From positions 1 to 33,751 of the forward strand of contig JAJFIU010000121.1 of the NCBI GenBank assembly GCA_021774695.1: a stretch of DNA of 33,751 nt, in the 5' to 3' direction. Position 1 is the first letter of the stretch. Every line of letters begins with the position of its first letter. The position numbers and the translations under genes were made by a program. Below, in pieces: positions 1,586 through 32,248 of the stretch. The stretch is from Alphaproteobacteria bacterium (lineage in GTDB: Bacteria; Pseudomonadota; Alphaproteobacteria; Sphingomonadales; Kordiimonadaceae). The notes under the pieces were generated by a model. The model searched no databases. It had not been told where the DNA came from and was given only the letters and a program-made list of their open reading frames with translations.

Positions 1586-2299
1586 TCAGGGCATGCTTTC
1601 TTCGTAAAGCCGTCGCACATCAGGAATAGTGATTTGGCGTCCGTTGAAAATTGCAAGGCCGTCAGCGTGCAGGTCAGAAATGATTCGCGATAGCGTTTCC
1701 TCGCGTGCGCCAACCATGGACGCAATTTGGCGCCGCTTCATTGGTACCTTGAACGCAACCGAACCCTTATCATCCGCATTTGCAGAATGCCGCGACAGCA
1801 ACAGCAGTAAATTTATCATGCGGACCCGCACTGGGATCAGCGGTGTCCGCAAAGCCAGTGCGTCGCGCGGTCCTGGATCTCGGGCAACGGTTTTTAGATA
1901 CCGCAAGGAAAGATCACTATTTTCTCGCAGTAATGACAAAACCACAGAGCCTGGAATTAGACACACTTTGATCGGTGTAAGAGCTATGGCTGTCGCAGCG
2001 TGCGCTTCTCCCGCGAAGAAACTTCTCCAACCCAGTGTTGATCCCGCCTCGGTGACACCAAAACTGGTTTCGTTGCCAAACCGATCAAACCGGCGTAAAA
2101 AAACATGCCCTTCCTCAAGGCAATATACGCCTTTTGGATCATCGCCTTGCTCGAATAGACTGCTGCCTGCCTCATAACCACGGGCAAATTTATTAGAAGT
2201 TACACGGGTCAATTCATTAGCGGATAACTCAGCCCATTCAACCTTAGGGCATACCGAACAAGATGCGCACATTGGACCGGTTCGCCTAGTATAGGCCAT
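1586..2299 (-). CDS. FNR-type Crp/Fnr transcriptional regulator
   Basis: A 237-residue regulator: N-terminal cysteine cluster, cyclic-nucleotide-like beta-roll, dimer helix and C-terminal helix-turn-helix. ATG at 2299 follows GGGGGAGT at six bases; a TTG eight codons upstream is less likely. Cysteines at 11, 14 and 17 form C-x2-C-x2-C, and Cys113 sits in KVCLIP, aligning with the fourth cluster ligand (Cys122) of E. coli FNR in its MVCEIP segment. This suggests an oxygen-labile [4Fe-4S] cluster, though the N-terminal spacing is shorter than in E. coli FNR. The recognition helix has E201-x2-S204-R205, the contacts that read TTGAT. A perfect FNR box (2454-2467) lies between this gene and the divergent usp gene, and two more lie downstream in the phosphate cluster. 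Family certain; oxygen sensing inferred. Confidence 0.9.
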   Translation of the reverse strand: MAYTRRTGPMCASCSVCPKVEWAELSANELTRVTSNKFARGYEAGSSLFEQGDDPKGVYCLEEGHVFLRRFDRFGNETSFGVTEAGSTLGWRSFFAGEAHAATAIALTPIKVCLIPGSVVLSLLRENSDLSLRYLKTVARDPGPRDALALRTPLIPVRVRMINLLLLLSRHSANADDKGSVAFKVPMKRRQIASMVGAREETLSRIISDLHADGLAIFNGRQITIPDVRRLYEESMP

Positions 2300-2453
2300 A
2301 TCCACTCCCCCAAAATTTCCCAACTTCTTCTAAGCCGAGACCTCACAAGAAATATTATGCGTGAACTAATCTCAATGTACCAACGATTATTGTTGTTTTA
2401 GCGGCTATTTCACAACATCGGCATCGGCGTAGAAACTTCGAGCCAGCCATTTG

Positions 2454-2467
2454 TTGATATATATCAA
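2454..2467. promoter_or_regulatory. Perfect FNR box (TTGAT-ATAT-ATCAA)
   Basis: An exact match to the FNR/ANR consensus TTGAT-N4-ATCAA, in the divergent region between the FNR-type regulator (minus) and usp-Na/Pi cotransporter (plus). Centred at 2460.5, it would sit at -41.5 for a start near 2502, leaving a leader of about 60 bases before the usp ATG at 2565. That is the class II activation geometry. It could also mediate autoregulation of the regulator. Confidence 0.8.
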
Positions 2468-2564
2468 GAGAAAATATTGATCGAAATGCTACTTGGTTTC
2501 GGAAGGGGACCAAGTCACGAACTGTCTATGTTTGTCGCCAGTTCAACAAAGGACAAAAAACAAA

Positions 2565-3083
2565 ATGGGGGAAGGACATACCTTGGGAGATACACCGGAG
2601 GAGGATAGATCGGGCCCCATCCTTGTTGCAATTGACTTCTCTGACGATTCAGAAGCTGCAGCCAGTTGGGCAGTCAAGCAGGCCAGCGCGCTGAGAGCGC
2701 CGCTGTGTTTCATCCATGTTGTCCATGAACCCGTTGATCAACCAGGGTTTTACCGCGAAAACCCAAGTGATATTACTCGTCCCATGTCGGAAGTGGCGGC
2801 GGAAATGCTTAATAAATATATAGCATCTCTGGCCTACAACTTTCCTCGTATAATGGCGTTAAAAGCGGCTGAAGCTATTGTGGTAAGAGGGCTGCCGCCA
2901 ACACGCATCGTGGAGGCTGCCGAAAAAGTGGGTGCAAGCCAAATTGTTATGGGATGCCGCGGGTTGACCGGAATGCCGCGTCTGATGGTCGGCTCCCAAA
3001 CAGAACGTGTGCTCCAGCTTTCCCCAATTCCTGTAACGGCTGTAAAAGCTCCGGGCAAAAACGGAGATAACCAGGATGCGTAA
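2565..3083 (+). CDS. Universal stress protein, UspA family
   Basis: A 172-residue cytoplasmic protein with one Usp domain. ATG at 2565 follows AAAGGAC; a longer frame from a TTG at 2493 would add residues unlike the family. The domain begins with PILVAIDFSDDSE and ends with the nucleotide-binding signature G-x2-G-x9-G-S, read here as GCRG...VGSQTERVL, then the usual SPIPVTAVK strand. The intact glycines suggest ATP binding, as in the MJ0577 subgroup. Usp proteins aid survival under starvation or low oxygen, and several are FNR/ANR-controlled. The perfect FNR box about 100 bases upstream fits that. The last 8 bases overlap the start of the Na/Pi cotransporter gene, so the two are translationally coupled. 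Its exact role in phosphate physiology is unknown. Confidence 0.9.
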   Translation: MGEGHTLGDTPEEDRSGPILVAIDFSDDSEAAASWAVKQASALRAPLCFIHVVHEPVDQPGFYRENPSDITRPMSEVAAEMLNKYIASLAYNFPRIMALKAAEAIVVRGLPPTRIVEAAEKVGASQIVMGCRGLTGMPRLMVGSQTERVLQLSPIPVTAVKAPGKNGDNQDA

Positions 3084-4872
3084 CCTAACAGTATCGCCTG
3101 TGCTGGCGTGGCACGCAAAACAACGGTCATTGATTGGTCTGGCAGTTCTATTCTTAGTTTTTCTCATCTGGATTGTCACCACACCTGCGTTTGCTGCGTC
3201 GCCGGGCGGCAATGCCATCGACTGGATGGGTATGAGCTTGCAGCTTTTTGGCGGACTTGCACTTTTCCTTTTTGGCATGGAACAAATGGCATCGTCTTTG
3301 AAGCAGGTGGCCGGCGAACGTATGAAAGACATTCTCGGTCGCCTGACCGGCAATCGCTTCGTTGGCATGATCACCGGTGCTTTTGTTACGGCGATTATCC
3401 AGTCATCGTCCGTAACAACCGTTATTCTCGTGGGTTTTGTGGCCACAGGGTTGATGTCGCTCGCTCAAGCCGTTGGTGTGATTTTCGGTGCCAACATAGG
3501 GACAACGATTACCGCACAAATTGTCGCTTTCAAGGTGACAAAATTTGCGCTTTTGTTTGTCACGCTGGGCTTTGGCATGATGTTCGCTGCCAAGAAAAAC
3601 AAGATAAAACAATACGGCAGTCTGATTATGGGGCTTGGCCTGATTTTTTACGGTATGGCGGTAATGAGTGTCGGAATGAAGCCGCTAAGAAGCTTTGAGC
3701 CCTTTATCGAACTGATGGGTAGCGTATCAAATCCATTGATCGGAATTGCGGTTGCTGCGGCCTTTACTGCGCTTGTTCAATCATCGTCGGCAACGCTGGG
3801 CGTCATCATTGCACTTGCAATGCAGGGGTTGATCTCTCTCGAAGGCGGGATTGCAATGGCGCTAGGCGCCAATGTGGGAACTTGTGTAACAGCGGGGCTT
3901 GCTGCAATAGGCCAGCCACGCGAAGCTGTGCGCGTTGCGGTCGCTCATGTGTTGTTCAATGTCATTGGCGTATTGTTGATAGTCGGCTTCATCCCTTATT
4001 TTGCAGATTTAATCCGGTCCGTTTCCCCGAACTACGGGGACATGAGCGGGCAGGCGAGATTGGCGGCTGAAACACCGCGTCAAATCGCCAACGCTCATTC
4101 CATCTTCAATGCCATTATAGCAATTGGTTTTATGCCTTTTCTTAGTCCGTTTGCGCGACTATGCGAACGACTTGTGCCGGATCAACCACTCGAAAAATCA
4201 CTTGTGATCAAGGCTAAATATCTAGATCCGACGCTGCTGGAAACCCCGGTTTTTGCACTAGACAGGGCCCGCTTTGAAATTGGTCGAATGGCCGGGTTAG
4301 TCAATGAAATGTTAAAACAGTCCCTGCCAACAGTGATGACGGGAACAGCGGAAGAGTTAGAAGAAATTGCCGACATGGATGCTGATGTTGACGCTCTATA
4401 TGCCGAGATTATTGACTATCTCGGACGGGTCAGTGTCAAGGAGCTGTCAGATAGTGAAACCAAGCAATTGATGCGCCTGTTTGAAATGGCGCAGCGGATT
4501 GAAGACATCGGTGACACGATAGAGACAGGCATGGTTATGTTGGGACTGCGGCGGATAGCGGACGGCATCGTTATAAGCCCGACAACGCTGGAAAAAATAA
4601 TGGAATTCCACGCACAGGTTGTTCATGCCATGGAGCTAACGGCAGACGTCATCAAAAAGCAGGATGGCAAGAAATTAAAGCAAGTTAAAGGGATGAAACA
4701 AGACATAGCCCGGATGGCCGAAGCCGCTGCACGGCATGAAGTATCGCGCCTGACGGCTGATGCCCCTAACCGGGTAAACACCTACACCCGCGAAGTCGAA
4801 ATTATCGATTATCTAAGTCGTATTTTCAAACGCTGTCGCCGAGTTGCAAAAACAGCGATGGCATCTGCTTAA
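3076..4872 (+). CDS. Na+/phosphate cotransporter (NptA/PNaS family) with C-terminal PhoU-like domain
   Basis: A 598-residue inner-membrane protein predicted to import (or in some bacteria export) inorganic phosphate with sodium. Residues 15-40 form a first hydrophobic segment. Two inverted repeats each carry the hallmark QSSS motif, at 109-112 (AIIQSSSVTT) and 235-238 (ALVQSSSATL), each followed by a G-A-N-[IV]-G-T turn. From about residue 395 the protein becomes soluble and helical, as in the PhoU-like domain fused to many NptA proteins, with acidic E/D-rich helices around 420-540. Start ATG 3076 overlaps the usp stop region. It is one of two phosphate transporters in the cluster, the other being Pit. 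Family certain; transport direction and regulation inferred. Confidence 0.92.
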   Translation: MRNLTVSPVLAWHAKQRSLIGLAVLFLVFLIWIVTTPAFAASPGGNAIDWMGMSLQLFGGLALFLFGMEQMASSLKQVAGERMKDILGRLTGNRFVGMITGAFVTAIIQSSSVTTVILVGFVATGLMSLAQAVGVIFGANIGTTITAQIVAFKVTKFALLFVTLGFGMMFAAKKNKIKQYGSLIMGLGLIFYGMAVMSVGMKPLRSFEPFIELMGSVSNPLIGIAVAAAFTALVQSSSATLGVIIALAMQGLISLEGGIAMALGANVGTCVTAGLAAIGQPREAVRVAVAHVLFNVIGVLLIVGFIPYFADLIRSVSPNYGDMSGQARLAAETPRQIANAHSIFNAIIAIGFMPFLSPFARLCERLVPDQPLEKSLVIKAKYLDPTLLETPVFALDRARFEIGRMAGLVNEMLKQSLPTVMTGTAEELEEIADMDADVDALYAEIIDYLGRVSVKELSDSETKQLMRLFEMAQRIEDIGDTIETGMVMLGLRRIADGIVISPTTLEKIMEFHAQVVHAMELTADVIKKQDGKKLKQVKGMKQDIARMAEAAARHEVSRLTADAPNRVNTYTREVEIIDYLSRIFKRCRRVAKTAMASA

Positions 4873-4960
4873 AGACAGATTGGAATAGAGTTCTGGCGGC
4901 CTGTACTCATGGTTGCAAGCTTATCAGATTGTATTGTGTTTTTACAAGCTGGGATACCGT

Positions 4961-5332
4961 CTAGAAAAAATCTCGCCTTGAAATAACACCCAGAATAGTG
5001 CCGTCGCCATCAAGAACAGGTAGGTGCCGGTACCCGCCGCGGTCCATCGACCATAGCGCGTCGCTAACGGACGTCTCGGGCGACGCAAAATCAGGATCGG
5101 GCGTCATCACCTGGTCGAGAGTGGCTGTCGCGAGGTCAAAATCGGCATCCACCATAAGCCGCACCATATCACGCTCGGTAAATATACCGACTAATTGCTT
5201 GTCTTCCACCACAAGCACCGCGCCGATATCATGAGCCTTCATGCTGTTGGCGGCTTCCCACACAATCGCCTCTGGGGGTAGTGCAACTACGGTCTGCCCA
5301 GCTACCAACTCAAGAATGCTTTTTGGGGCCAT
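4961..5332 (-). CDS. Tandem CBS-domain protein
   Basis: A 123-residue protein made almost entirely of a CBS pair (Bateman module), which usually binds adenine nucleotides and reports energy state. The first CBS motif covers about residues 8-60 (VWEAANSMKAHDIGAVLVVE then GIFTERDMVR) and the second 70-123 (SVSDALWSMDRGGYRHLPV then GVISRRDFF). The ATG at 5332 has GGGAGAA six bases upstream. It is convergent with the Na/Pi transporter and divergent from the DUF47-pit pair. A FixK-type palindrome 64-77 bases upstream of its start is well placed for class II activation of this gene. No catalytic domain is attached; it probably acts on a partner not identifiable here. Confidence 0.88.
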   Translation of the reverse strand: MAPKSILELVAGQTVVALPPEAIVWEAANSMKAHDIGAVLVVEDKQLVGIFTERDMVRLMVDADFDLATATLDQVMTPDPDFASPETSVSDALWSMDRGGYRHLPVLDGDGTILGVISRRDFF

Positions 5333-5395
5333 GTTATTTCTCCCGATGCTTGGCTATTATTCATCGCAGAAAACCACAAAAACAAAAAACTTTCG

Positions 5396-5409
5396 TTGAC
5401 CCTTGTCAA
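5396..5409. promoter_or_regulatory. FixK/FNR-type box (TTGAC-CCTT-GTCAA)
   Basis: A perfect inverted repeat matching the alphaproteobacterial FixK/FNR consensus TTGA(C/T)-N4-(A/G)TCAA. It lies in the 286-base divergent region between the CBS gene (minus) and DUF47-pit (plus). A -41.5 placement gives a minus-strand start near 5361 with a 29-base leader for the CBS gene; toward DUF47 the leader would be about 175 bases, so the CBS gene is the better-placed target. Confidence 0.65.
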
Positions 5410-5618
5410 TGTTTTCCTGTGTCAGTGATCCTAAAGCTAATTTCACAATCTTTTGCAAATTGGTTGGACGGGTTGTACGGGCTGGTGCGCACCTTTTGGG
5501 TTGGCAATACGTAGCACGGCCCGTGTCATACGTAGCTGAGAATACGCAATTTAATGAGAAAAACCGCTATTTTTTGAGTTCTGTATTTATCATTTAATGA
5601 ACCTGGATAGGAAAAAAC

Positions 5619-6299
5619 ATGGTTGCTAAAAATCCGTTTTCCGATCTCTTTGGACGGTCGCCGATCAAACCTCTGCAACATCATATTGAAGTTGTTCAAA
5701 AATGCGCGCTGCTAACAGTTGATTTATTTGATGCCGTTTTTGCGGGCAATAGAGATGAGGTGCAAGAGCAAATCAATCGCATATTTGAAGTCGAGTCCGA
5801 GGCCGATCAGATCAAGAATGACTTACGGGAGCATTTGCCGAAAAGCCTGCTCATGCCCATTGATCGCCGCGATTTACTCGAAATTCTGAACTTGCAAGAC
5901 GCCATTGCAGATACGGCGCAAGATATTGCTGCCATTGTTCAACTACGACGGTTTGAAGTGCCTGAAGAGTTACAGCAGCCTTTTATGCTGCTGGTTAGAA
6001 GGTCTATCGACGCCTGCAATCAATGCTCGCTTATTATAAACGAACTGGACGAACTTGTTGCCACTGGTTTTAGAGGCCGAACCTCCGATGTTGTCCATGA
6101 AATGATCGCAGAGCTCAACAAGATTGAATCGGATGCGGATAACCTTGGTAATGATTTAAGCCGCGAGTTATTCCGGCACGACGCGACCATGAGTCCGGTT
6201 TCGCTGATGTTGACTTTCCGGGTCGTGGAGCTGATTGGCGGCATGGCTGATTATGCAGAAATGGTTGGCAACCGTCTTCGTCTTGTCTTAGCGCGCTAA
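5619..6299 (+). CDS. DUF47/PhoU-like protein paired with Pit transporter
   Basis: A 226-residue all-helical protein of the DUF47 (TIGR00153) family, relatives of PhoU that pair with Pit transporters and are thought to regulate them or bind metals. The two PhoU-type metal motifs are visible as EVESEADQIKNDLR (about residues 52-65) and KIESDADNLGNDLSRE (about 165-180), both of the ExxxDxxxxxD type. The N-terminal FxxLFGRSP is typical. ATG 5619 is preceded by a GGATAGG-like site. The pit gene begins 22 bases after its stop, so they form an operon. It is cytoplasmic and probably docks on the transporter. Family assignment is strong; effect on transport is inferred. Confidence 0.9.
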   Translation: MVAKNPFSDLFGRSPIKPLQHHIEVVQKCALLTVDLFDAVFAGNRDEVQEQINRIFEVESEADQIKNDLREHLPKSLLMPIDRRDLLEILNLQDAIADTAQDIAAIVQLRRFEVPEELQQPFMLLVRRSIDACNQCSLIINELDELVATGFRGRTSDVVHEMIAELNKIESDADNLGNDLSRELFRHDATMSPVSLMLTFRVVELIGGMADYAEMVGNRLRLVLAR

Positions 6300-6321
6300 C
6301 AACTCCCAGGGGGGAATTTCA

Positions 6322-7587
6322 ATGGATATTATTAGCCAGTACGGCACTATTTTCGTCATTTTGGCCCTTGTCTTTGGTCTTTACATGACATGGGGGATCG
6401 GAGCAAACGACGTCGCCAATGTGATGGGAACATCAGTTGGATCAGGCGCGATTACGGTTAAAACCGCGATCATTATCGCCGCCATATTCGAATTTCTTGG
6501 TGCCGCGATGGCCGGAGGGCATGTAACCCAAACCATTCGCAAGGGCATTATTGACGCGAGCGGTTTCGTCGATAACCCGGAGTTAATGATATACGGCATG
6601 CTTGCCGCACTGCTGGCAGCGGCTGTCTGGTTGATGATCGCGTCTTCCCGAGGCTGGCCGGTGTCTACCACACATTCGATTGTCGGTGCCCTTGTTGGTT
6701 TTGCGATTGCAGCAGTAGGAATGGAAGCCGTGGCATGGGACAAAATTGGTCAAATTGTTGCCAGTTGGCTGGTTTCTCCAGCGCTGGGCGGCGGTATTGC
6801 TTTTGTATTGATGATGAGCATTCGCTATCTGATTTTTGAAACGGACCACCCCTTTGAACAGGCAAAAAAATGGGGTCCTGTTTATATTTTCTTTGTCGGG
6901 TTTATTATATCGCTGGTGACCATTTTCAAGGGCTTAAAGCATCTCAATATCGAGCTTTCTGTTGAAATGAGTTTTCTTGTTGCTGTTATTTTTGGACTTG
7001 TGGTCGCGGCGATTGGCTGGGCCATGATCCGCAGAATTACGGTGGATAAAAAAGCAGACAAAGATTACCATTTTGCCAGCGTTGAAAAAGTTTTCACACC
7101 GATGATGATTTTTACCGCCTGTGCAATGGCCTTTGCCCACGGATCCAATGATGTGGCAAATGGTGTTGGGCCAATCGCGGCGGTTTACGGCATCGTGCAA
7201 AGCGGCGGAGAAGTTTTGCAGAAGTCCAGTATGCCAATCTGGATCCTGTTGATCGGTGGTTTTGGCATCGTCATTGGATTGGCGACATACGGTTACAAAG
7301 TGATGCAAACAATTGGCACCAAAATCACCGAGCTAACGCCGACACGGGGTTTTTGTGCCACGATGGCCGCCGCTGCAACCGTTGTGTTGGCGTCGCGGAC
7401 CGGCATGCCTGTGTCAACCACCCATATTGCGGTGGGAGCCGTCGTGGGTGTTGGTATGGCAAGAGGGGTCGGTGCCATTGACCTGCGCGTTGTCACTGGC
7501 ATCGTTATGTCCTGGGTGATTACGTTACCTGTTGGCGGCATTCTGGCAGCATTGTTTTACTTCACGCTCAGAGGCGCCTTCTCGTAA
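6322..7587 (+). CDS. Pit-family inorganic phosphate transporter
   Basis: A 421-residue integral membrane transporter of the PiT family, which carries metal-phosphate with protons (bacterial) or sodium. The two inverted halves each begin with the family signature: GANDVANVMGTSVGSGAI at about residues 27-44 and GSNDVANGVGPIAAV at about 275-289. Each half is followed by a P-V-S-T-T-H motif (about residues 113-118 and 357-362). A central hydrophilic loop near residues 235-250 separates the halves. ATG 6322 follows a very strong AGGGGGGAA site, 22 bases after the DUF47 stop. It is the second phosphate importer of this cluster and would supply the polyphosphate kinases encoded downstream. No frameshift or missing motif seen. 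Confidence 0.93.
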   Translation: MDIISQYGTIFVILALVFGLYMTWGIGANDVANVMGTSVGSGAITVKTAIIIAAIFEFLGAAMAGGHVTQTIRKGIIDASGFVDNPELMIYGMLAALLAAAVWLMIASSRGWPVSTTHSIVGALVGFAIAAVGMEAVAWDKIGQIVASWLVSPALGGGIAFVLMMSIRYLIFETDHPFEQAKKWGPVYIFFVGFIISLVTIFKGLKHLNIELSVEMSFLVAVIFGLVVAAIGWAMIRRITVDKKADKDYHFASVEKVFTPMMIFTACAMAFAHGSNDVANGVGPIAAVYGIVQSGGEVLQKSSMPIWILLIGGFGIVIGLATYGYKVMQTIGTKITELTPTRGFCATMAAAATVVLASRTGMPVSTTHIAVGAVVGVGMARGVGAIDLRVVTGIVMSWVITLPVGGILAALFYFTLRGAFS

Positions 7588-7603
7588 TTTCACCAGAAGA
7601 CTC

Positions 7604-7804
7604 TCATGGGAAAAGGCTGGTGTTTAGCGGGCGGGACTTTGTTTTTTTTGCACCTGTATTTGTCGCACCGGCATTTATAGCATCGGCATATATCAAGGGC
7701 AGCGGACGCTCATCGTTGAACCTGGCGCTCACACTACGGCCCCTGTCCATATATACATTATACCACTCCAGATAGTCGCTGGCGCGCCCTGTCTGGGCGA
7801 CAGT
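7604..7804 (-). pseudogene. Possible degenerate transposase C-terminal fragment
   Basis: On the minus strand a frame without a start codon runs 66 codons to a stop at 7604-7606. Its middle reads YLEWYNVYMDRGRSVSARF and then PLPLIYADAI. This loosely resembles the C-terminal end of IS3/IS481-type DDE transposases (pattern YN-x-RxHSxL...TPxxxY), but key residues are changed. It could equally be chance. Together with the 442-base gene-free gap it suggests decayed DNA. Confidence 0.2.
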
Positions 7805-7973
7805 CTAGTCATATTGTCAACCCCAAACACCTTGGCAGAGGACGAGCAAATTTTTGCGCACTTCGTTGCGGGACAAACGGCAGAGTTTCTTGAATGTGAT
7901 AAACTGGGCTTAATACGTCAAGCTGCTGCATCGTTGGGTAACTGGCAGAGCTTTTATCGGGGCAGGTTTTCCG

Positions 7974-8007
7974 GGAGCGGTGTTTGTATAGGCTTAAACA
8001 CCGCTCC
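7974..8007 (-). terminator. Strong hairpin downstream of the HHH/polylysine gene
   Basis: GGAGCGGTGTTT (7974-7985) pairs perfectly with AAACACCGCTCC (7996-8007) across a 10-base loop. It lies just beyond the stop of the minus-strand gene ending at 8030. No long U-tract follows on either strand, so it may be an mRNA 3'-end stabiliser rather than a classical intrinsic terminator. Confidence 0.45.
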
Positions 8008-8029
8008 GGTGATTTAATTGAAGAAAGAC

Positions 8030-8527
8030 CTATTTTTTTTTGCTTTTCTTTTTGCTTTTCTTTTTCTGGTCTTTTTTCTTATTTTTAGTCGCTTTTTTTG
8101 GCTTTTTAACGTTCTTTTTCTTGTTTTTGGTCACTTTTTTGGACTTTTTGACGACTTTTTTCGTATTCTTTTTGGTTGATTTTTGCGATTCCTTGGCTTT
8201 CCTGGCCTTCTTTTCCTTTTTCTCTTTCTTATCTTTCTTGGCTTTTTTCATCGTTTGTCCTTTTTTTGACGCTTTAACTTTAGTTTCAAGAGTATCTGGT
8301 TCTGCCGCAACGGCTTTTCCGTTCTGCAGGGGCACGGCCCGCGCAGCAATAGTTGTCTGAGCCGCCTTAGATATGTGCGTGGCCCGAACCGGGCCAAGGC
8401 CCTTTACTTTTACCAGAACTGCAAGACTTGCAGCTGCCAGCTCCTCGGCAGTTGAGATATTGTGCTCCGCAAGGCAACCCGCCATGTGTGGGCCGATGCC
8501 TGGAACCTCTGTTACCGGCGTATTCAT
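8030..8527 (-). CDS. Helix-hairpin-helix protein with histone-H1-like polylysine tail
   Basis: A 165-residue protein with two unlike parts. Residues 1-60 hold a helix-hairpin-helix fold: VPGIGPHMAGCLAEHNISTAEELAA, then VKGLGPVRATHISKAA, the GxGxx hairpins that contact DNA backbone phosphates. From residue 83 to the end, 46 of 83 residues are lysine in KKxKK-type repeats, like histone H1 or AlgP tails. ATG 8527 is chosen because GGGAGGGA lies five bases upstream; the frame extends to 8602 without such a site. The gene is divergent from ppk2-ppk1 and shares an FNR box with it. From AlgP, an H1-like protein known to affect polyphosphate granule placement in Pseudomonas aeruginosa, I infer a nucleoid or polyP-granule binding role. 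No enzyme domain is present. Confidence 0.8.
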   Translation of the reverse strand: MNTPVTEVPGIGPHMAGCLAEHNISTAEELAAASLAVLVKVKGLGPVRATHISKAAQTTIAARAVPLQNGKAVAAEPDTLETKVKASKKGQTMKKAKKDKKEKKEKKARKAKESQKSTKKNTKKVVKKSKKVTKNKKKNVKKPKKATKNKKKDQKKKSKKKSKKK

Positions 8528-8605
8528 CTCGTCCCTCCCTTTCAAATTTATATGACGAACAACGCCATAAGGTGCGCACAATCCTGCAGATTCTCTGGCC
8601 ATGCA

Positions 8606-8619
8606 TTGATAATCATCAA
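8606..8619. promoter_or_regulatory. Perfect FNR box (TTGAT-AATC-ATCAA)
   Basis: Exact match to TTGAT-N4-ATCAA in the divergent region between the HHH/polylysine gene (start 8527) and ppk2. A -41.5 placement gives starts near 8654 (toward ppk2) and near 8571 (toward the HHH gene, 44-base leader), so it can serve both. The rightward start lies before every ATG candidate of ppk2 but just after the TTG at 8648, which supports a downstream ATG. Confidence 0.78.
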
Positions 8620-8752
8620 GGAAAAGTTGAGCGGTTTCTTCTAAGCATTGTGGTTAATTGGGGATATTTTCAGAGCGATGTCACACACCGGTTCAAGCCG
8701 AATTATCACTCGTTACTCTAGCTTGCTGAAAACAATAGGGATGTCCGAAACA

Positions 8753-9607
8753 ATGTCTAAAAAGCGAACCCGTGATGAAAACAGCGTTAACACGTCTGAA
8801 AACCGCGCTGCATGTTCACCCGCGGCGCGGAAAAAATTGGCCCGCGACGACTATGAAAAAGAACTGCGGCGGCTCCAGATTGAACTTGTGAAATTAAAAC
8901 ACTGGGTTCAGCGACACGGCCTGAAAGTTGTCGTGATATTTGAAGGCCGTGACGCGGCAGGTAAAGGCGGTGTGATAAAACGAATTATCGAAAAACTTAG
9001 CCCGAGGGTTTGCCGTGTCGTCGCACTAGCCACGCCGAGCGAACGGGAAAAAACCCAAGGGTATTTTCAGCGCTATGTGCCCCATCTACCAGCAGCCGGG
9101 GAAATCGCCCTGTTTGACCGCAGCTGGTATAACCGTGCGGGCGTTGAGCGGGTGATGAATTTTTGCACCGACGATGAATATGAGGAATTTTTGCGCAGTT
9201 GCCCCGAATTTGAACGCATGCTGGTGCGCTCTGATGTTGTACTTATTAAATATTGGTTTTCCGTGAGTGACGAAGAGCAAGAGCGGCGCTTTCAGGCGCG
9301 CTCGAAAGATCCAACCAAGCAATGGAAACTCAGTCCGATGGACATCGAATCCCGCAATCGTTGGGTAGATTATTCCCGCGCCAAGGACCGGATGTTTTCC
9401 CACACCGACATCAAACAGGCACCCTGGTTCGTGGTGAATGCAGATGTCAAAAAAGCGGCACGCCTCAATTGTATTAGCCACTTTCTGAGCATGATCCCTT
9501 ACGAGGGCCCGGATCATAAACCGGTCAAACTACCCAAAAGGCCGGAACCGGCCGGTTATGTCAGACCGCCAATGTCAGATCAAAGCTTTATACCCGAGAT
9601 ATACTAA
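8753..9607 (+). CDS. ppk2: Polyphosphate kinase 2 (PPK2 class I)
   Basis: A 284-residue P-loop kinase that transfers phosphate between polyphosphate and nucleoside diphosphates, in most class I members favouring NTP formation. Walker A is GRDAAGKGG (residues 65-73), Walker B is FDRSWYNRAG (121-130), and the lid region follows with YWFSVSDEEQERRFQAR and the typical KQWKLSPMD. The N-terminal KKLARDDYEKELRRLQIELVKL is the usual PPK2 leader helix. The start is uncertain: ATGs at 8678, 8741 and 8753 and a TTG at 8648 are in frame. I chose 8753, with AGGGA eleven bases upstream, which gives a family-typical length. ppk1 follows 24 bases after the stop, so they are probably cotranscribed, under the FNR box at 8606. 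Confidence 0.92.
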   Translation: MSKKRTRDENSVNTSENRAACSPAARKKLARDDYEKELRRLQIELVKLKHWVQRHGLKVVVIFEGRDAAGKGGVIKRIIEKLSPRVCRVVALATPSEREKTQGYFQRYVPHLPAAGEIALFDRSWYNRAGVERVMNFCTDDEYEEFLRSCPEFERMLVRSDVVLIKYWFSVSDEEQERRFQARSKDPTKQWKLSPMDIESRNRWVDYSRAKDRMFSHTDIKQAPWFVVNADVKKAARLNCISHFLSMIPYEGPDHKPVKLPKRPEPAGYVRPPMSDQSFIPEIY

Positions 9608-9631
9608 CTCCCAACCATACGGAGAGATACG

Positions 9632-11911
9632 ATGAACGCCAAAAGTAAAATTGTAGCGACGGAGGCAAAGGGCGGTGACGTCGCCGTCGCCGACCCGAAA
9701 TTGCTCGAACAGCATCTGGCGCTGGTAAAATCAGGGCTGCCTGTGCCGGCTAACAATGGTACTGACCAAGAACCGGAATTCAATCTGTCTTCGCCGGAAG
9801 TTTACCTTAATAGGGAGCTAACCTGGTTGCGCTTTAACGACCGCGTGCTCAATGAAGCCAGTGACGTGCGTTTGCCAATTTTGGAACGCCTTAAGTTTCT
9901 GGCTATTACCGGCTCCAACCTTGATGAATTCTTCATGAAACGTATTGGGGGGCTAAAGCAGCAGGTCGGAGCTGGTGTTCATGATTTAACTGTTGATGGC
10001 CTGTCACCAGTGCAGCAGATAACCCAATGCCTTGCCTTTGTCGCCGACTTCCAGAAAAAAGTGCGAACCGTTTACCTTGATATTTTGACCGAGCTGAAAA
10101 AACACCGGATCACTATTATTGACAACAGCGAGTATGACGCTTTGCCCATCGAAGATCGATTGGCCCTGCGGGGTATTTACCGGGAAAAAATATTTCCACT
10201 CATAACGCCGCTTGCGATGGATCCTGCCCATCCGTTTCCTTTTATTTCCAATCTTTCCATTAATCTTCTGGTGGAATTGTCTGAAGGTGGTGATGAAAAA
10301 GATAGCACCAAACTGGTACGGGTTAAGGTACCACAAGGCGAGAATGTGCCGCGTTTCCTTAAGGTGCCGTCAAAAGACGTTTACGTTAGCCTTGTCGACG
10401 TAATTCGGACTAATTTGGACTCCCTTTTTCCGGATATGGATGTGCTTTCGTGCGAGGTTTTTCGGGTGATCCGCAATTCCAACACAGAGCGTAGCGAGGA
10501 AATGGCCGATGACCTGCTTTCGATGATTGAACTGGAACTGCGGGACCGAAAATTTGCACCTATTGTCCGCTTGGAAGTGGAGCAGGGCATGCGCCAGCTT
10601 CATAAAGGTATGTTGGCATGTGAACTGGGGCTTGATGAAGGTGTGGATGTGTTTGAATCGGACACCCTCCTGGGTTTCAAAGATGTTATGGAGCTGGCCA
10701 TGCTCGACCGCCCAGAGCTTCGGGATCAGGACCATCATCCCATCACCCATGTTCGGCTTAAGGACGAGGGTAGTATCTTCCATATACTGAGAAAGTCTGG
10801 CTCGATATTGCTGCAGCATCCATACGAATCGTTTGTCACATCGGTTGAACGTTTTGTGCGTGAAGCAAGCCAGGACTCCAAAGTGCTGGCCATCAAAATG
10901 ACTTTATACCGCACATCCGAGGGCACAAAGATTATCGAGTATCTTGTTGACGCGGCGCGCAAGGGCAAACAGGTGGCTGTAGTTGTGGAGCTTAAGGCCC
11001 GATTTGACGAGGCCGCCAATATCCTTTGGGCCAGCCGTCTGGAAGAGGCAGGTATTCATGTCACATACGGCGTGGTCGGCCTGAAGACGCACTCCAAAAC
11101 CATCCTTGTAGTACGTCAGGACTATGACGGCCTGCGGCGGTATGCCCATATTGGCACAGGCAATTATCACGCGGGTACTGCACGGCTGTACTCGGATATT
11201 GGCCTGCTTACCTGTGACGAGGAAATCGGTGCTGATCTCACTGATCTCTTTAACTATCTGACATCAGGGTGCCAGCAATCAAACAAATACCGCAAAATAT
11301 TGACGACACCAAAGGTCTTTAAAAAAACGCTGATCAAAAACATAACTCGGGAAACCGACTTCGTGCAAAACGGGCGGCCCGGCCATATCAGGCTCAAAAC
11401 CAACGCTCTGGAAGATTCAGACATTGTCAAAGCGCTTTATAAAGCGTCCCAGGCTGGCGTGAAGGTTGAATTGGTTATACGGGACACCTGCCGCCTCATT
11501 CCCGGCGTGCCGGGACTATCTGACAATATTACCGTCGTCAGTGTTATCGGTCGTTTTTTGGAGCATGCTCGTATTTACCATTTCAGAAACGGCGGGCAAG
11601 ATGAATATTTTATCGGTTCAGCTGACCTGATGCGCCGTAATCTGGAAAGCAGGGTAGAGGTTATCGTTCCGGTAGAGGAAAAATCTCATCAGACAGAGCT
11701 TAATCATATCTTGAAGATTCAGCTGAAAGACCACCGAAACGTATGGGACATGTGTCCTGACGGTGAGTATACCCAGCGGCAACCCGGACTCGGCCAACGC
11801 AGGATGGGATCGCAGTTAACCCTTGTAAGGCGGGCGCAAAAGCGCGCTGCAGACGCCGATAAAATACGCAAGCGTATGCCGCGTGGTTTTGCCCGGCGGG
11901 TTTCTCGCTAG
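9632..11911 (+). CDS. ppk1: Polyphosphate kinase 1
   Basis: A 759-residue enzyme that reversibly makes polyphosphate from ATP at the membrane or granule. The N-terminal domain opens with YLNRELTWLRFNDRVLNEA (residues 58-76) and SNLDEFFMKRIGGLKQQ (95-111). The two phospholipase-D-like catalytic domains are intact: KTHSK with His487, matching the autophosphorylated His435 of E. coli, then HIGTGNYHAGTARLYSDIGL (506-525), and later LEHARIYHF with His645, matching His592. ADLMRRNLESRVE follows. It is a little longer than usual because of a 50-residue leader and a basic tail ending FARRVSR. ATG 9632 follows ACGGAGAGA. It lies 24 bases after ppk2. No exopolyphosphatase gene accompanies it in the window. 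Confidence 0.96.
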   Translation: MNAKSKIVATEAKGGDVAVADPKLLEQHLALVKSGLPVPANNGTDQEPEFNLSSPEVYLNRELTWLRFNDRVLNEASDVRLPILERLKFLAITGSNLDEFFMKRIGGLKQQVGAGVHDLTVDGLSPVQQITQCLAFVADFQKKVRTVYLDILTELKKHRITIIDNSEYDALPIEDRLALRGIYREKIFPLITPLAMDPAHPFPFISNLSINLLVELSEGGDEKDSTKLVRVKVPQGENVPRFLKVPSKDVYVSLVDVIRTNLDSLFPDMDVLSCEVFRVIRNSNTERSEEMADDLLSMIELELRDRKFAPIVRLEVEQGMRQLHKGMLACELGLDEGVDVFESDTLLGFKDVMELAMLDRPELRDQDHHPITHVRLKDEGSIFHILRKSGSILLQHPYESFVTSVERFVREASQDSKVLAIKMTLYRTSEGTKIIEYLVDAARKGKQVAVVVELKARFDEAANILWASRLEEAGIHVTYGVVGLKTHSKTILVVRQDYDGLRRYAHIGTGNYHAGTARLYSDIGLLTCDEEIGADLTDLFNYLTSGCQQSNKYRKILTTPKVFKKTLIKNITRETDFVQNGRPGHIRLKTNALEDSDIVKALYKASQAGVKVELVIRDTCRLIPGVPGLSDNITVVSVIGRFLEHARIYHFRNGGQDEYFIGSADLMRRNLESRVEVIVPVEEKSHQTELNHILKIQLKDHRNVWDMCPDGEYTQRQPGLGQRRMGSQLTLVRRAQKRAADADKIRKRMPRGFARRVSR

Positions 11912-25689: not shown

Positions 25690-28600
25690 ATGAAACTTGG
25701 TAAAAAAATCACAATTTTGCTTGCTTGCACCGCTCTTACCGGTGGTGCTTATATCGCACCGGCATTCGCGGAGACCAGCGAAAAAGATTATTATGTCGCG
25801 CCCGAGTATCTGGACGGCTTGCAATACCGAAATATAGGGCCGTGGCGCGGGGGCAGAGTGACCACCGTTGCGGGCACCACTAGTGACAAACGCGTTTACT
25901 ATATGGGCGCAACAGGCGGCGGTGTCTGGAAAACGACTAATGCTGGCGGCGACTGGATCAATGTCAGCGACAAGTTTTTCAAAATGGGATCTGTGGGTGC
26001 ACTAGCCGTGGCTCCTTCTGATCCTAATGTTGTGGTCGCCGGAATGGGTGAGTCTCCGTTTCGCGGCGTTGCTTCTTCTCACGGCGACGGCGTTTATATA
26101 TCGCGCGATGCCGGTAAAACCTGGGAAAATGTTGGCCTGAAAGGCAGCCGCCAGATATCGACGGTGCATATTCACCCAACCAATCCTGATGTCATCTGGG
26201 TTGCAGTGCAGGGCTCTCCTTGGGGCCCAACGGAAGAACGCGGTGTTTTTAAAACCATTGACGGCGGCAAGACCTGGAATAAAACCCTGTTTGTAGACAC
26301 CACCACAGGCATCATCGATCTGACAGTGGACGCCAATAACCCGCGTATTCTTTATGCATCATCTTGGGACACCGACCGTGAGCCTTGGCTTATTCGCTCT
26401 GGCGGACCGGGCTCAGCGATCTGGAAATCAATAGACGGCGGCGAAACATGGAATAAAACCAGCAAGGGCCTGCCAGAGGAAATGGGCAAAATCGGGGTTA
26501 TCGCTTCCGGCGCAAAAACCGATCTTGTTTGGGCAATCGTTGAGGCCAAAGAAAAGGGCGGACTTTATAAGTCAACAAACGGCGGCGACAGTTGGAGTTT
26601 TGTTAACGGTGATAGGCGCTTGCACGCAAGGTCATGGTATTACATGCATGTATTCGCCGACCCAAAGGACGAAAATACGGTTTATGTTCTCAATGCACCC
26701 TTTATGAAATCGGTAGACGGCGGTAAAAGTTTTGAGCAAATTTCAGTGCCGCACGGCGATACCCACGACTTGTGGATCAACCCTGAAAACCCGGACGTGA
26801 TGATCAACGCTAACGACGGTGGTGGTACGGTATCGCTGGATGGAACAAAAAGCTGGTCAACAGTTTATAACCAGCCTACTGCGCAGATATACCGTCTGAA
26901 TGCTGATAATAATTTTGCTTACCGTCTGTACGGCGGCCAGCAAGATAACAGTACGGTTGCAATTTTAAGCCGCGCGCCTGACGGCTCTATCGGGCTTGAG
27001 GATTTTCATGCAGTTGGCGGCTGCGAAAGCGGATTTGTCGGTCTTGACCGCGATAACCCGCGTTATGCATATTCGGGCTGCTATTTGGGCCAAATCGACG
27101 AATATGATTTTGCCACCGAAACAGACCGCAATGTAAGCGCATACCCGGAAATGTCTTTTGGTAGTGCGCCTAAAAACCGCAAATACCGCTTTAACTGGAA
27201 CGCGCCGATTTTTGTCTCGCTGCACAATCCGTCTGAGATTTATCATGCTGGCAATAAGTTGCTGAAATCAACGGACCGCGGCGTTAGCTGGAGCGAAGTT
27301 AGCCCAGACCTGACCCGCAATGACCCTGCAACACAGGGCCCGGGCGGCGGACCAATCACTAACGAAGTGTCGGAAAATTATAACACCATCACTTACGTCG
27401 CTGAAAGCATGCACGCTGCGGGAACCATGTACGCAGGTTCTGACGACGGACTTGTACACGTAACCCGTGACGGCGGTGCTAACTGGGAAAATATCACCCC
27501 GCGCGGCATTGGTGCGGCTTTGATTAATGCGATTGACGTGTCTCCGCATGACCCGGCGACGGCCTATATCGCGGTGACAAAGTATAAGGAAAATGATCAC
27601 ACGCCGATGATCTTTAAAACCACCAATTACGGCAAGCGCTGGAAGCAAATTGCAGACGGTATTCCGGACGGTGATTTTGTCCGTGTGGTGCGCGAAGATA
27701 CCGAGCGCAAAGGCATGTTGTATGCAGGCACCGAATCTGGGCTGCATATTTCGTTTGACGACGGTGACAACTGGCAACCAATGCAATCAAACCTGCCGCA
27801 TGTGCCGGTTACCGACATGAAAGTGCACGGCAAAGACTTGGTGTTATCCACGCAAGGGCGCGGCTTCTGGATCCTGGATGACATTGCACCACTTCGGCAA
27901 ATGACTGGAAACACAGACACGGCGTCCTTGTTTGCGCCCTCCACTGCTTACCATGTTCATACCGCTGGCGGCAGGAACGGAGGGGCTACCAGCCCGAATC
28001 CGCCGTCCGGTGCGGTTCTATACTATAGCCTTGCTGACACGCCCGACGACGGTATCTCGCTTGAAATATTGAATAGCGACGGTTCAGTGATCAGAACGTT
28101 GAAATCTGACGCCAAAAAAGGTGAAAAAGGCGGTGGCTCCGGCAGCGCTTATAACTTGCCGATGAAAACCGGACTGAACCGGGCGCAGTGGGACTTGCGC
28201 GTTGATGCCTTGGAGAAAATTGACGGATTATGGTCGGTTGCTGGCGGCGGCGACAGCAAGGTAGATGGCTATATGGTTGCCCCCGGCACTTATACAGCGC
28301 GGTTAACGGCAGGAGACACTGTTAGCGAGCAAACTTTCGCCGTTGCCTGGGATCCGCGCGTCAATATCGATGCGGCATTGATTGTGGAGCAGACGACAAT
28401 GGCAAGGCAAAGCCATGAAATGTTGGCCGAATTGCAGCAATCGGTGATTTCAATGCGCAAGGCTAAGATGCTGGCCAAGTCCCAAACTGAAGCCAACAGC
28501 GATGTTGAAGCCCTTAAGGCTGCAGGCGATGCTGCAGTGACGGCTATCGAGGCTTGGGAAAAAGGCTTGATCAACACCGAGCGTGAGTTCTTTCAGGATG

Positions 28601-28842
28601 TGTTGAACTGGCCTGACAAGCTGCATTCAGACCTGCAATTCTTGCTGGGAAATCTGGACGGCGGTATTGCGCCGGTGAATGCAGGAACCAAGCAACGGTT
28701 TGAAGATGTGGCCGCCATATTCCGTGACGCAATGGCTGCACGCGACGCGGTAGTTTCTGGCGAGATCGCAGCGTTTAATGCGGCGTTTGCAGCAAGTGGT
28801 CGCAGCGCAGTAACAGTGCCAAGTTTCACAGACTCTGAGTAA
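25690..28842 (+). CDS. Exported Asp-box (BNR/VPS10-like) beta-propeller protein, paralogue 1
   Basis: A 1050-residue exported protein with signal peptide MKLGKKITILLACTALTGGA...AFA. It contains many Asp-boxes (S/T-x-D-x-G-x-T/S-W): SRDAGKTW, TIDGGKTW, SIDGGETW, STNGGDSW, STDRGVSW, TRDGGANW, SFDDGDNW, each at the turn of a propeller blade as in sortilin, sialidases and xyloglucanases. The GPWRGGRVTTVAG opening, the GGQQDN motif near residue 418 and the TGLNRAQWDLR beta-sandwich near residue 830 recur in its neighbours. The C-terminus is helical. ATG 25690 follows AAGGGGA. No catalytic residues are recognisable; it could be a binding scaffold or glycan/peptide hydrolase in the periplasm or outside. 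It heads a tandem array of three. Confidence 0.87.
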   Translation: MKLGKKITILLACTALTGGAYIAPAFAETSEKDYYVAPEYLDGLQYRNIGPWRGGRVTTVAGTTSDKRVYYMGATGGGVWKTTNAGGDWINVSDKFFKMGSVGALAVAPSDPNVVVAGMGESPFRGVASSHGDGVYISRDAGKTWENVGLKGSRQISTVHIHPTNPDVIWVAVQGSPWGPTEERGVFKTIDGGKTWNKTLFVDTTTGIIDLTVDANNPRILYASSWDTDREPWLIRSGGPGSAIWKSIDGGETWNKTSKGLPEEMGKIGVIASGAKTDLVWAIVEAKEKGGLYKSTNGGDSWSFVNGDRRLHARSWYYMHVFADPKDENTVYVLNAPFMKSVDGGKSFEQISVPHGDTHDLWINPENPDVMINANDGGGTVSLDGTKSWSTVYNQPTAQIYRLNADNNFAYRLYGGQQDNSTVAILSRAPDGSIGLEDFHAVGGCESGFVGLDRDNPRYAYSGCYLGQIDEYDFATETDRNVSAYPEMSFGSAPKNRKYRFNWNAPIFVSLHNPSEIYHAGNKLLKSTDRGVSWSEVSPDLTRNDPATQGPGGGPITNEVSENYNTITYVAESMHAAGTMYAGSDDGLVHVTRDGGANWENITPRGIGAALINAIDVSPHDPATAYIAVTKYKENDHTPMIFKTTNYGKRWKQIADGIPDGDFVRVVREDTERKGMLYAGTESGLHISFDDGDNWQPMQSNLPHVPVTDMKVHGKDLVLSTQGRGFWILDDIAPLRQMTGNTDTASLFAPSTAYHVHTAGGRNGGATSPNPPSGAVLYYSLADTPDDGISLEILNSDGSVIRTLKSDAKKGEKGGGSGSAYNLPMKTGLNRAQWDLRVDALEKIDGLWSVAGGGDSKVDGYMVAPGTYTARLTAGDTVSEQTFAVAWDPRVNIDAALIVEQTTMARQSHEMLAELQQSVISMRKAKMLAKSQTEANSDVEALKAAGDAAVTAIEAWEKGLINTEREFFQDVLNWPDKLHSDLQFLLGNLDGGIAPVNAGTKQRFEDVAAIFRDAMAARDAVVSGEIAAFNAAFAASGRSAVTVPSFTDSE

Positions 28843-28877
28843 TAATATTGGCGCTGAATAATAATATCAATGAGGAC

Positions 28878-28900
28878 GAGGGGGGCTTGTGTGCCCCCTC
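28878..28900 (+). repeat. Intergenic hairpin between propeller genes 1 and 2
   Basis: GAGGGGGGC (28878-28886) pairs with GCCCCCTC (28893-28900), one G bulged, around a TTGTGT loop. No U-tract follows. It stands 36 bases after gene 1 and 18 bases before the start of gene 2, so it is more likely an mRNA-stability or attenuation element than a full terminator. Confidence 0.6.
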
Positions 28901-28918
28901 ACGCTTACAGGAGTGGTA

Positions 28919-31900: not shown

Positions 31901-32176
31901 TTCCGAACACCACGAGGTACCAGGGGCATTGTTTTCCGCGGTGGAAATGTCAGTTCATTTGTTGGGCTGGCAGCGACCTATGTTGGTAGTTCTCGCGGTG
32001 CGCCCAATGAGGCTGCATTGCAGCAGGTAGCCAAAGCGGAAGCTGCTGTTGCGGGTGCCGTTATAGCGCTCAACAAGCTTCTAGAGGAAGATGTGGCCTC
32101 ACTTAGAGCCGCGGCGAGCGCAGCTGGCATTGGCCTTCTGAACCAAATACCACTCGAGCAGGCTGACACTGAATAG
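28919..32176 (+). CDS. Exported Asp-box (BNR/VPS10-like) beta-propeller protein, paralogue 2
   Basis: A 1085-residue paralogue of its upstream neighbour. ATG 28919 is preceded by CAGGAG at six bases; an in-frame GTG ten codons earlier lies within the intergenic hairpin and is rejected. The signal peptide ends in TASA. Blades carry SLDGGKTW, TTDGGKNW, SHDGGDNW, SDDGGRSW, SIDGGKTF, TQDGGQTW, STDRGKTW and TRDGGTTW. GGLQDNGAWRGPS corresponds to GGQQDN of paralogue 1, and HQGINRVVWDMR to its TGLNRAQWDLR. A highly acidic, low-complexity insertion (ESDDEKDEGESEG, about residues 815-827) precedes that domain and is absent from paralogue 1. The C-terminal 150 residues are helical. Function unknown; the tandem layout suggests joint export and related ligands. 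Confidence 0.87.
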   Translation: MNSIFKTMTCVGALMLGAGTASADIDSDLMSGIKARVIGPAAMSGRVAAIDAVASDPSHIVVGAATGGVWISSNGGLNWTPTFDGEECASIGSVAINQSNPDIIWVGTGEGNTRNSTSIGCGMFKSLDGGKTWNKVGLENSERINRIALHPTNPDVAYAAVLGKLWGDSDERGLYKTTDGGKNWSIMLAGDETTGASDVQMDPTNPNKLFASMWQFRRWPFFFKSGGEGSGLFVSHDGGDNWNELTEEDGLPKGVLGRSAFTISRSDPNRVYALIEAEKSALARSDDGGRSWKLVNTDNDINDRPFYYNGISVDPQNPDRVYRVGSRVKMSIDGGKTFSFIEKINCCAPRNDIHIDNHAWWINPANPKHIIDGNDGGLGITQDGGQTWRFVANLPLAQFYHIAVDNDLPYNVYGGLQDNGAWRGPSEVFENGGIRNLHWQEVAFGDGFDTIPHPENSRKGVSMSQGGFLVSWNLDTGEQRLIRPKGPEDGTELRFNWNAGFAQSPFDANTIFYGSQYVHKSTDRGKTWQIISGDMTTNNPEFQTFRESGGITPDVTAAENYTSITSVNPSPVDANVLWIGTDDGRVHVTRDGGTTWDSVEDNIRRGPKGGWIPMIEPSLYDASVAFIAVDDHRRGDNKPYVYRMENYGKRWRSLVTDDMTGYALSVRQDHVDENLLFVGTEFGLHFSTNAGKDWTKWASDVPTVSVMDMAIQKRENDLILGTHGRSAYVIDDYSALRGLSDETFKEPLKILSVTNGQQYIASQTPSTRFPGDGEFRSENEPYGAMITFMASGDDLKHPDAEKNKARMVAKRAAQTESDDEKDEGESEGNKKSSDKVTIKIVNSSGETIRTFKADVHQGINRVVWDMRQDGFNGAPPAKPRKDGTLPAGLEILPGSYNLTIELGDNSSSHEVRVLADPRTEFSAADQMKNFEMRTHLSGLFERVQLALTELMNARRDIATLTTLIKSSDIDEEASKKLSEQAGDAKKALEEMEKQFRTPRGTRGIVFRGGNVSSFVGLAATYVGSSRGAPNEAALQQVAKAEAAVAGAVIALNKLLEEDVASLRAAASAAGIGLLNQIPLEQADTE

Positions 32177-32181
32177 TCAAT

Positions 32182-32211
32182 TTGGCTTCGGTTCTTATGG
32201 GCCGAAGCCAA
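32182..32211 (+). repeat. Intergenic hairpin between propeller genes 2 and 3
   Basis: TTGGCTTCGG (32182-32191) pairs perfectly with CCGAAGCCAA (32202-32211) around a 10-base loop, six bases after the gene 2 stop. There is no U-tract. Its place mirrors the hairpin in the preceding spacer. Confidence 0.65.
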
Positions 32212-32248
32212 CGCACTAAGTCAACGGACACGTCATAGAGGACAGAAT

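Follow-up and report, generated by a model that had tools for sequence, protein, structure and literature searches.

Contig C26 of a draft genome from the alphaproteobacterial family Kordiimonadaceae (3.80 Mb in 172 contigs, 90.7% complete) carries a 10.3 kb block of phosphate and polyphosphate (polyP) genes, which is a second, accessory set in this genome and in which every divergent promoter holds a perfect FNR-type palindrome. Judging from the sequence, we consider it probable that this accessory island stands under the Crp/Fnr regulon of the cell, of the low-oxygen type, and a polyP store may be worked when oxygen falls. The whole contig of 33,751 bases was analysed, and it is referred to below as the window.

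Palindromic boxes in the block promoters

The palindrome TTGAY-N4-RTCAA (TTGAYNNNNRTCAA) occurs in perfect form exactly three times in the window, compared to 0.25 occurrences expected; none of 100 shuffles reached three, and a chance origin of the boxes was rejected on these grounds. The first-pass annotation of this DNA had stated that one such box lies in every one of the block's three divergent promoters and that the window holds no other, and both statements are borne out. When one mismatch is tolerated, 7 boxes are found in the window against 5.1 expected, so that the perfect boxes alone are informative. The genes and boxes of the block are listed here by their positions in the window.

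1586..2323, minus strand: Crp/Fnr regulator (REG); likely start ATG 2299; C11-x2-C14-x2-C17, central C113; REETLSR recognition helix
2454-2467, no strand: box 1, TTGATATATATCAA, REG/Usp divergent promoter
2493..3083, plus strand: universal stress protein (Usp); likely start ATG 2565; 8-base overlap with the Na/Pi gene
3076..4872, plus strand: Na/Pi (sodium/inorganic phosphate) cotransporter with a C-terminal PhoU domain; Pfam/NCBIfam
4961..5332, minus strand: CBS-pair protein; profile match
5396-5409, no strand: box 2, TTGACCCTTGTCAA, CBS/DUF47 divergent promoter
5619..6299, plus strand: DUF47 (PhoU_div) protein; Pfam/NCBIfam
6322..7587, plus strand: Pit-type phosphate transporter (PHO4); profile match
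8030..8602, minus strand: helix-hairpin-helix (HHH) protein with a lysine-rich tail; likely start ATG 8527
8606-8619, no strand: box 3, TTGATAATCATCAA, HHH/PPK2 divergent promoter
8648..9607, plus strand: polyphosphate kinase 2 (PPK2); likely start ATG 8741
9632..11911, plus strand: polyphosphate kinase 1 (PPK1); Pfam/NCBIfam

Gene identities were assigned via Pfam/NCBIfam profiles, which agree with the names given in the first-pass annotation. PPK2 scores 379.2 bits, above the curated cut-off of 301.8 (equivalog TIGR03707), and PPK1 748.7 bits against a cut-off of 465.85; the HHH protein has 46 lysines among its last 90 residues. Because usp overlaps the Na/Pi gene and the gaps within DUF47-pit and ppk2-ppk1 are only 22 and 24 bases, the block seems to be arranged as three units running rightward (usp-Na/Pi, DUF47-pit and ppk2-ppk1) and, running leftward, three genes that stand singly (regulator, CBS and HHH-lysine).

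We next consider the rest of the genome, where the first-pass annotation had left enrichment to a wider scan. The boxes indeed exceed chance, with 46 perfect copies against 16 for a reversed-pattern control, and at the genome rate the block would hold about 0.12 boxes instead of three. With mechanically called open reading frames (ORFs), 33 of the 46 boxes are not deep inside an ORF and 31 lie at most 300 bases from an ORF start. Of 19 genomes of the genus, ours among them, 18 have more boxes than the reversed control, and our genome has the highest count; the exception is G002, with 8 boxes against 9, and several other margins are small (e.g., 25 versus 21). By eye, further boxes of our genome stand before a hemN-like gene and before a small ORF that precedes a ccoN-like gene on contig C60; hemN-like and other genes preceded by this class of box belong to life at low oxygen. 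Contig C68 is richer in boxes than the block, with 13 perfect copies in 50.6 kb. The block is thus one among several clusters of one regulon and not the sole one.

As to its gene content, contig C68 (loci L016-L018) encodes FtsH, VIT1, a CBS protein, a PAS kinase, a FixK-like regulator, formate dehydrogenase, acetate-CoA ligase, PEP synthase, a P-type ATPase, a thymidine/AMP-phosphorylase-type protein and PRPP synthetase, that is, functions of proteolysis, energy charge and stress.

Each of the 46 boxes was scanned outward on both sides, 92 directions in all, for short words at given distances from the centre of the box. The block contains four copies of the -10-like word CTA at an offset of 28 from a box centre.

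2430..2432, minus strand: -10-like CTA, from box 1 towards REG
2489..2491, plus strand: -10-like CTA, from box 1 towards Usp
5431..5433, plus strand: -10-like CTA, from box 2 towards DUF47-Pit
8641..8643, plus strand: -10-like CTA, from box 3 towards PPK2

CTA is found at offset 28 in 8 of the 92 directions (mean 1.02 per offset), and TA at offset 29 in 18 of 92 (mean 4.8), or in 14 of 86 (mean 4.6) when the block is left out. As a correction, every di- and trinucleotide was ranked at every offset, with 1,312 dinucleotide tests, and TA at 29 (corrected P 0.004) and CTA at 28 (corrected P 0.06) came first when the block was included. Fnr sites in Sphingopyxis, in the part of that study covered here, are mostly centred at -41.5 or -42.5, with one at -93.5 (PMC7713065). 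A class II FNR site at -41.5 would place the -10 element some 30 bases away from the centre of the box, and in the block such an arrangement consists of a box in all three divergent promoters and a -10-like CTA in four of the six directions. A TATAAT scan at the box spacing gave weak matches in these promoters.

The second gene set and its occurrence in relatives

The same genome has other copies of PPK1 (contig C78, 44% identity to the block version), PPK2 (C115, 56%), the DUF47-Pit pair (C117, 60% and 80%, respectively) and Na/Pi (C137, 36%). In a tree, the C115 PPK2 clusters with the copies of the genus; the C78 PPK1, C117 DUF47-Pit and C137 Na/Pi appear to be genus-type as well, to judge from their equal distance to the block versions. 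One perfect box is present on C115, before PPK2, which is the only second-copy gene with a perfect box; none of the 46 boxes lies on C78, C117 or C137.

No close match to REG or to the block-type DUF47, PPK1, PPK2 or Na/Pi was found in the 18 other genomes of the genus; for REG, the best hit had an E-value of 1.4e-11 at 24% identity and was not ortholog-like, and some of these genomes are incomplete. PPK2 was detected at E 1e-20 in eight of the 18, and orthologs of the C115 copy are present in six (G006, G010, G013, G015, G016 and G018). A perfect box lies upstream of ppk2 in five of these six, or in six of seven rows with our own C115 counted, and in six aligned upstream stretches, cut around the box and with a mean identity of 55%, TTGA-N6-TCAA is the longest invariant element, while its inner bases vary. 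Twelve further PPK2 rows (3 from the genus, the block row apart) have no perfect box within 450 bases. The upstream pattern looks like the footprint of an FNR-type control of ppk2 in genomes that contain no ortholog-like REG. Separately, PPK2 matches with one internal stop were seen in G012:C24, G017:C22, G010:C87 and G049:C1, possibly decayed copies or matches that overrun the end of the gene.

Beyond the genus, among 384 other genomes sampled from the class, block-type PPK1 (63-65% identity) is found in four and block-type Na/Pi (E 1e-90 or better) in eight. A parallel island is found in G240, a member of another family of the class, where the genes for Usp (48%), Na/Pi (60%) and PPK1 (65%) are lined up. 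An FNR-type regulator with the cysteine pattern C-x2-C-x7-C stands convergent to PPK1, and the stretch further encodes two CBS proteins, another Usp and a PPK2-like protein (34% identity over 92 residues) whose gene runs off the end of the stretch. Its 19.9 kb contain eight TTGA-N6-TCAA sites, compared to 0.13 expected and at most 2 in 300 shuffles; seven of them lie no more than about 200 bases ahead of a gene (counted from the ORF or match start), and the eighth is found upstream of the PPK2-like gene at a distance of over 300 bases. In G284, PPK2 and PPK1 are adjacent (68% and 63%), with a perfect box before PPK1. As regards conservation of the boxes in relatives, the lack of which the first-pass annotation had named as a refutation, the picture is mixed, with a conserved box at the genus-type ppk2 and the parallel island of G240 on one side and, on the other, the block itself, which was not found in relatives.

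Several results weigh against the reading of the block as an FNR-type island. For the promoters, the word CTA was chosen after the block promoters had been inspected, the CBS and HHH directions have no CTA at offset 28, and with the block left out CTA at 28 is seen in 4 of 86 directions, a weak signal at an uncorrected P of 0.015; in the full ranking without the block, TA at 29 (corrected P 0.38) and TAT at 29 (1.1) are at the top, yet no word is significant. For the relatives, the whole block was found in no other genome sampled, where Usp, CBS, HHH and Pit were not searched singly. Ten of the 18 genus-mates have no PPK2 at E 1e-20, the ortholog in G018 is without a box, and G013 and G016 are near-identical and not independent. 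Seven of the eight sites in G240 have TTGAG-type half-sites, not the TTGAT/TTGAC of the window (L126:883-19217), and two of the four genomes with block-type PPK1 (G276 and G364) contain neither such a site nor other block genes in the stretch fetched. Where Usp stands beside Na/Pi, no TTGA-N6-TCAA is present up to 300 bases away from the Usp match at four of five class loci (our own apart), and eight loci of the phylum with this pair have none at all.

A phylum-wide view of Na/Pi loci (29 stretches, from 32 listed matches outside our genome) gave Usp-Na/Pi in eight and a nearby DUF47-Pit in one, and no PPK1 or PPK2 in any of the 29. Taken together, the gene pairs thus move as modules, of which only some are under FNR-type boxes. 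The HHH domain, searched against the loci fetched, matched its own copy alone, and in a plasmid collection none of the records with PPK1 (94) or Na/Pi (16) reached 60% identity. Perhaps the block entered the genome late, or it is one of a few survivors.

Candidate regulators and rival explanations

REG contains a cyclic nucleotide monophosphate-binding domain (PF00027, 57.4 bits) and a Crp-type helix-turn-helix domain (PF13545, 54.4 bits). Of its cysteines C11, C14, C17 and C113, three (C11, C14 and C113) are invariant in five sequences including that of the window, and the third N-terminal one is placed unlike in the C-x2-C-x7-C of classical-looking rows. By this cysteine pattern REG is predicted to be of the iron-sulfur (Fe-S) type and to bind a cluster. 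The E-x2-S-R contacts named in the first-pass annotation are present (REETLSR), with the serine kept in four of five aligned rows and replaced by alanine in one. At 57.8 bits, REG is far below the cut-off of 300 of the FnrL equivalog NF045989, and it is therefore FNR-like and not FnrL. Relatives at 34-56% identity occur in 6 of 58 other genomes sampled, none of them of the same family. A search of further genomes with one narrow pattern gave seven loci, all in metagenome-assembled genomes (six at 34-48% and one match of 63 residues), and no further block gene was detected by tblastn in the sequence flanking them.

Three other Crp/Fnr proteins of our genome, encoded on contigs C68, C60 and C54, have recognition helices of the form E-x2-(S/C)-R; a fourth match, on C74, is barely above the cut-off and three more are below it. 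The C60 protein (L019:11812-12567, minus strand) lies beside the hemN-like gene, and a C-terminal C-x2-C-x5-C is present in 11 of 11 rows of its type (the others from L062, L067-L069, L071, L072, L077, L079, L081 and L082; L073 and L076 gave no row). Bacillus Fnr has C-terminal cluster ligands, according to the portion of that paper covered here (PMC3520743), and by analogy the C60-type regulator could be an oxygen sensor of the Bacillus Fnr design. The C54 protein (L041:3073-4719, minus strand) is a nitrate-sensing NIT domain fused to Crp/Fnr, with C-terminal cysteines and perfect boxes on both sides of its gene; proteins of similar length and C-terminus were seen in L064-L066, L078 and L080.

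The first-pass annotation had taken the neighbouring regulator as the reader of the boxes, a claim that we could not sustain: nothing ties the boxes to REG, and REG as the proven controller was rejected, because the 18 genus-mates have no ortholog-like match despite the conserved ppk2 box there. There is nearly an even chance that the boxes are read by another Crp/Fnr protein (C60-type, the FixK-like one of C68 or the NIT fusion of C54) and that REG joined the genome late, with targets that are separate or overlap with theirs. This would fit the conservation of the ppk2 box in the genus, where the 18 genus-mates have no ortholog-like REG, the recurrence of C60-type proteins with E-T-F-S-R in genus and family, and the surroundings of REG relatives in other families, which, where inspected by eye, are cytochrome-like genes and boxes and not phosphate genes. 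Against it, REG is located in the block with its own box and -10-like element and keeps E-x2-S-R and four cysteines, and the G240 island likewise contains an FNR-type regulator. With at least three other compatible Crp/Fnr proteins in the genome and no ortholog-like REG in the 18 genus-mates, the boxes may be read by any of these regulators, REG included. A different signal is also conceivable, since it could be nitric oxide, nitrate or a redox cue instead of oxygen, which would count against an oxygen-controlled island. In its specific form, with a Dnr-, NnrR- or NarR-type regulator and a block that answers denitrification, we regard this as unlikely. One box is TTGAC-N4-GTCAA, the genome has the NIT fusion, and some REG relatives adjoin cytochrome-like and multihaem-like genes with boxes (by eye); set against these are the four-cysteine pattern of REG, the box before the hemN-like gene and the TTGAC-type halves among published FnrL sites, as given in the part of that study covered here (PMC4634722).

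Two further explanations fare worse. Phosphate transporters and ppk genes are usual targets of PhoB in the Pho regulon, and ordinary Pho-type control with coincidental palindromes would account for the gene content. We consider this very improbable, since three perfect boxes stand against 0.25 expected and, with the Pho-box consensus, the best match in the block promoters is 9/14; the window reaches 11/14 at four places outside them, so that, unlike in the Pho regulon, no Pho-box-like site of these promoters rises above background. It is scarcely credible that contig C26 is foreign to the genome through a binning error, in which case the rarity of the island in the genus would be an artefact. 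The lack of close matches to REG and the block-type DUF47, PPK1, PPK2 and Na/Pi in genus-mates would agree with it, but the G+C content of the block (0.494) and of the rest of the contig (0.508) fits that of our own contigs (0.494-0.528), as do the tetranucleotide correlations (0.931 and 0.971, respectively, against 0.924-0.975), yet a stretch of the genus-mate G015 also reaches 0.944. In addition, contamination of the genome is given as 0.69% and the block Pit is 80% identical to the other copy, and a stray contig was rejected as unlikely because the base composition of the block fits the genome.

Proposed working and relation to known systems

For an FNR-type island, the following course of events would be expected. 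As oxygen falls, an FNR-type activator, either the block's own Fe-S-type REG and/or the genus-wide Crp/Fnr by hemN, the FixK-like protein or the NIT-domain fusion, would bind the boxes as a class II activator and switch on usp-Na/Pi, DUF47-pit and ppk2-ppk1, possibly together with the CBS and HHH-lysine proteins; REG may be autoregulated. PPK1 and PPK2 would make and spend polyP as a buffer of energy and phosphate, the lysine-tail protein would help to organise granules, and both transporters would move inorganic phosphate (Pi), in either direction. The phosphate import proposed in the first-pass annotation is a guess, since Na/Pi-PhoU and Pit proteins can also run outward. The other PPK1, Pit and Na/Pi copies, which are without perfect boxes, would serve ordinary phosphate nutrition.

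A bolder and rather doubtful extension is that of a horizontally spread, FNR-wired polyP battery, in which low oxygen turns on a dedicated set apart from phosphate nutrition and which turns up, under different FNR-type regulators, in families of the class that are unrelated to one another. PPK2 would then recharge nucleotides from polyP, Pit and Na/Pi-PhoU would expel the released Pi with cations, PPK1 would refill polyP, the lysine-tail protein would act as a granule organiser, and Usp and CBS would be sensors. If true, the island would represent a form of the anaerobic polyP cycle known from polyP-accumulating organisms that is switched by transcription. As a rule, control of polyP is seen in connection with phosphate starvation, the stringent response or stress. 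If oxygen supply were to decide polyP turnover through the island, separately from the other copies, this would help explain how some bacteria survive anoxia, and it would make an aerobic/anaerobic polyP cycle of the kind that drives biological phosphorus removal accessible to simple genetics.

Parts of such control have been described. Within the portions of the work covered here, FnrL of Rhodobacter capsulatus directly activates ppk2 (by ChIP-seq, i.e., chromatin immunoprecipitation sequencing, plus RNA-seq; site TTGATGCGTGTCAA) and a UspA-domain gene (PMC4634722), and FnrL of R. sphaeroides is said to reach 'polyphosphate dependent phosphorylation' (PMC4263372). Like these regulons, the block has an FNR-type palindrome ahead of ppk2 and of a gene with a UspA domain (PMC4634722, PMC4263372); it differs in that the main-text parts of the papers name no Na/Pi, Pit/DUF47, PPK1 or lysine-tail target, whereas the block unites them as an island in a second gene set. 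'Ca. Accumulibacter' UW-LDO-IC, a polyP accumulator, likewise has FNR-type boxes and induces uspA under anoxia, but the FNR targets listed in the sections covered are respiration, hemN, uspA, pta and phaC, with no ppk or phosphate transporters among them (PMC6446978). For the HHH protein, the nearest likeness is AlgP of Pseudomonas aeruginosa, which the covered part of its description presents as a lysine-rich, histone H1-like protein of polyP granules (PMC9239181). Both have a lysine-rich, low-complexity C-terminal tail and, in AlgP, this is linked to polyP (PMC9239181); unlike AlgP, the window protein has an HHH domain, and the two were compared by tail character. By analogy, the lysine-tail protein may act on granules in the manner of AlgP.

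The first-pass annotation knew of no described regulon with this make-up, which holds for the whole set and not for its parts, given that FnrL is described, in the passages covered, as acting on ppk2 and a gene with a UspA domain. In the full-text literature searched, which leaves most subscription papers outside, none of the matches listed describes a complete phosphate/polyP island governed by FNR-type boxes. From its sequence, the block is a plausible, extended FNR-type phosphate/polyP module, and FnrL control of ppk2 and of a Usp is already published for Rhodobacter. Elsewhere in the window, positions 25690-33751 encode a tandem trio of large, related repeat proteins that, by eye, look like BNR/sortilin-type beta-propellers.

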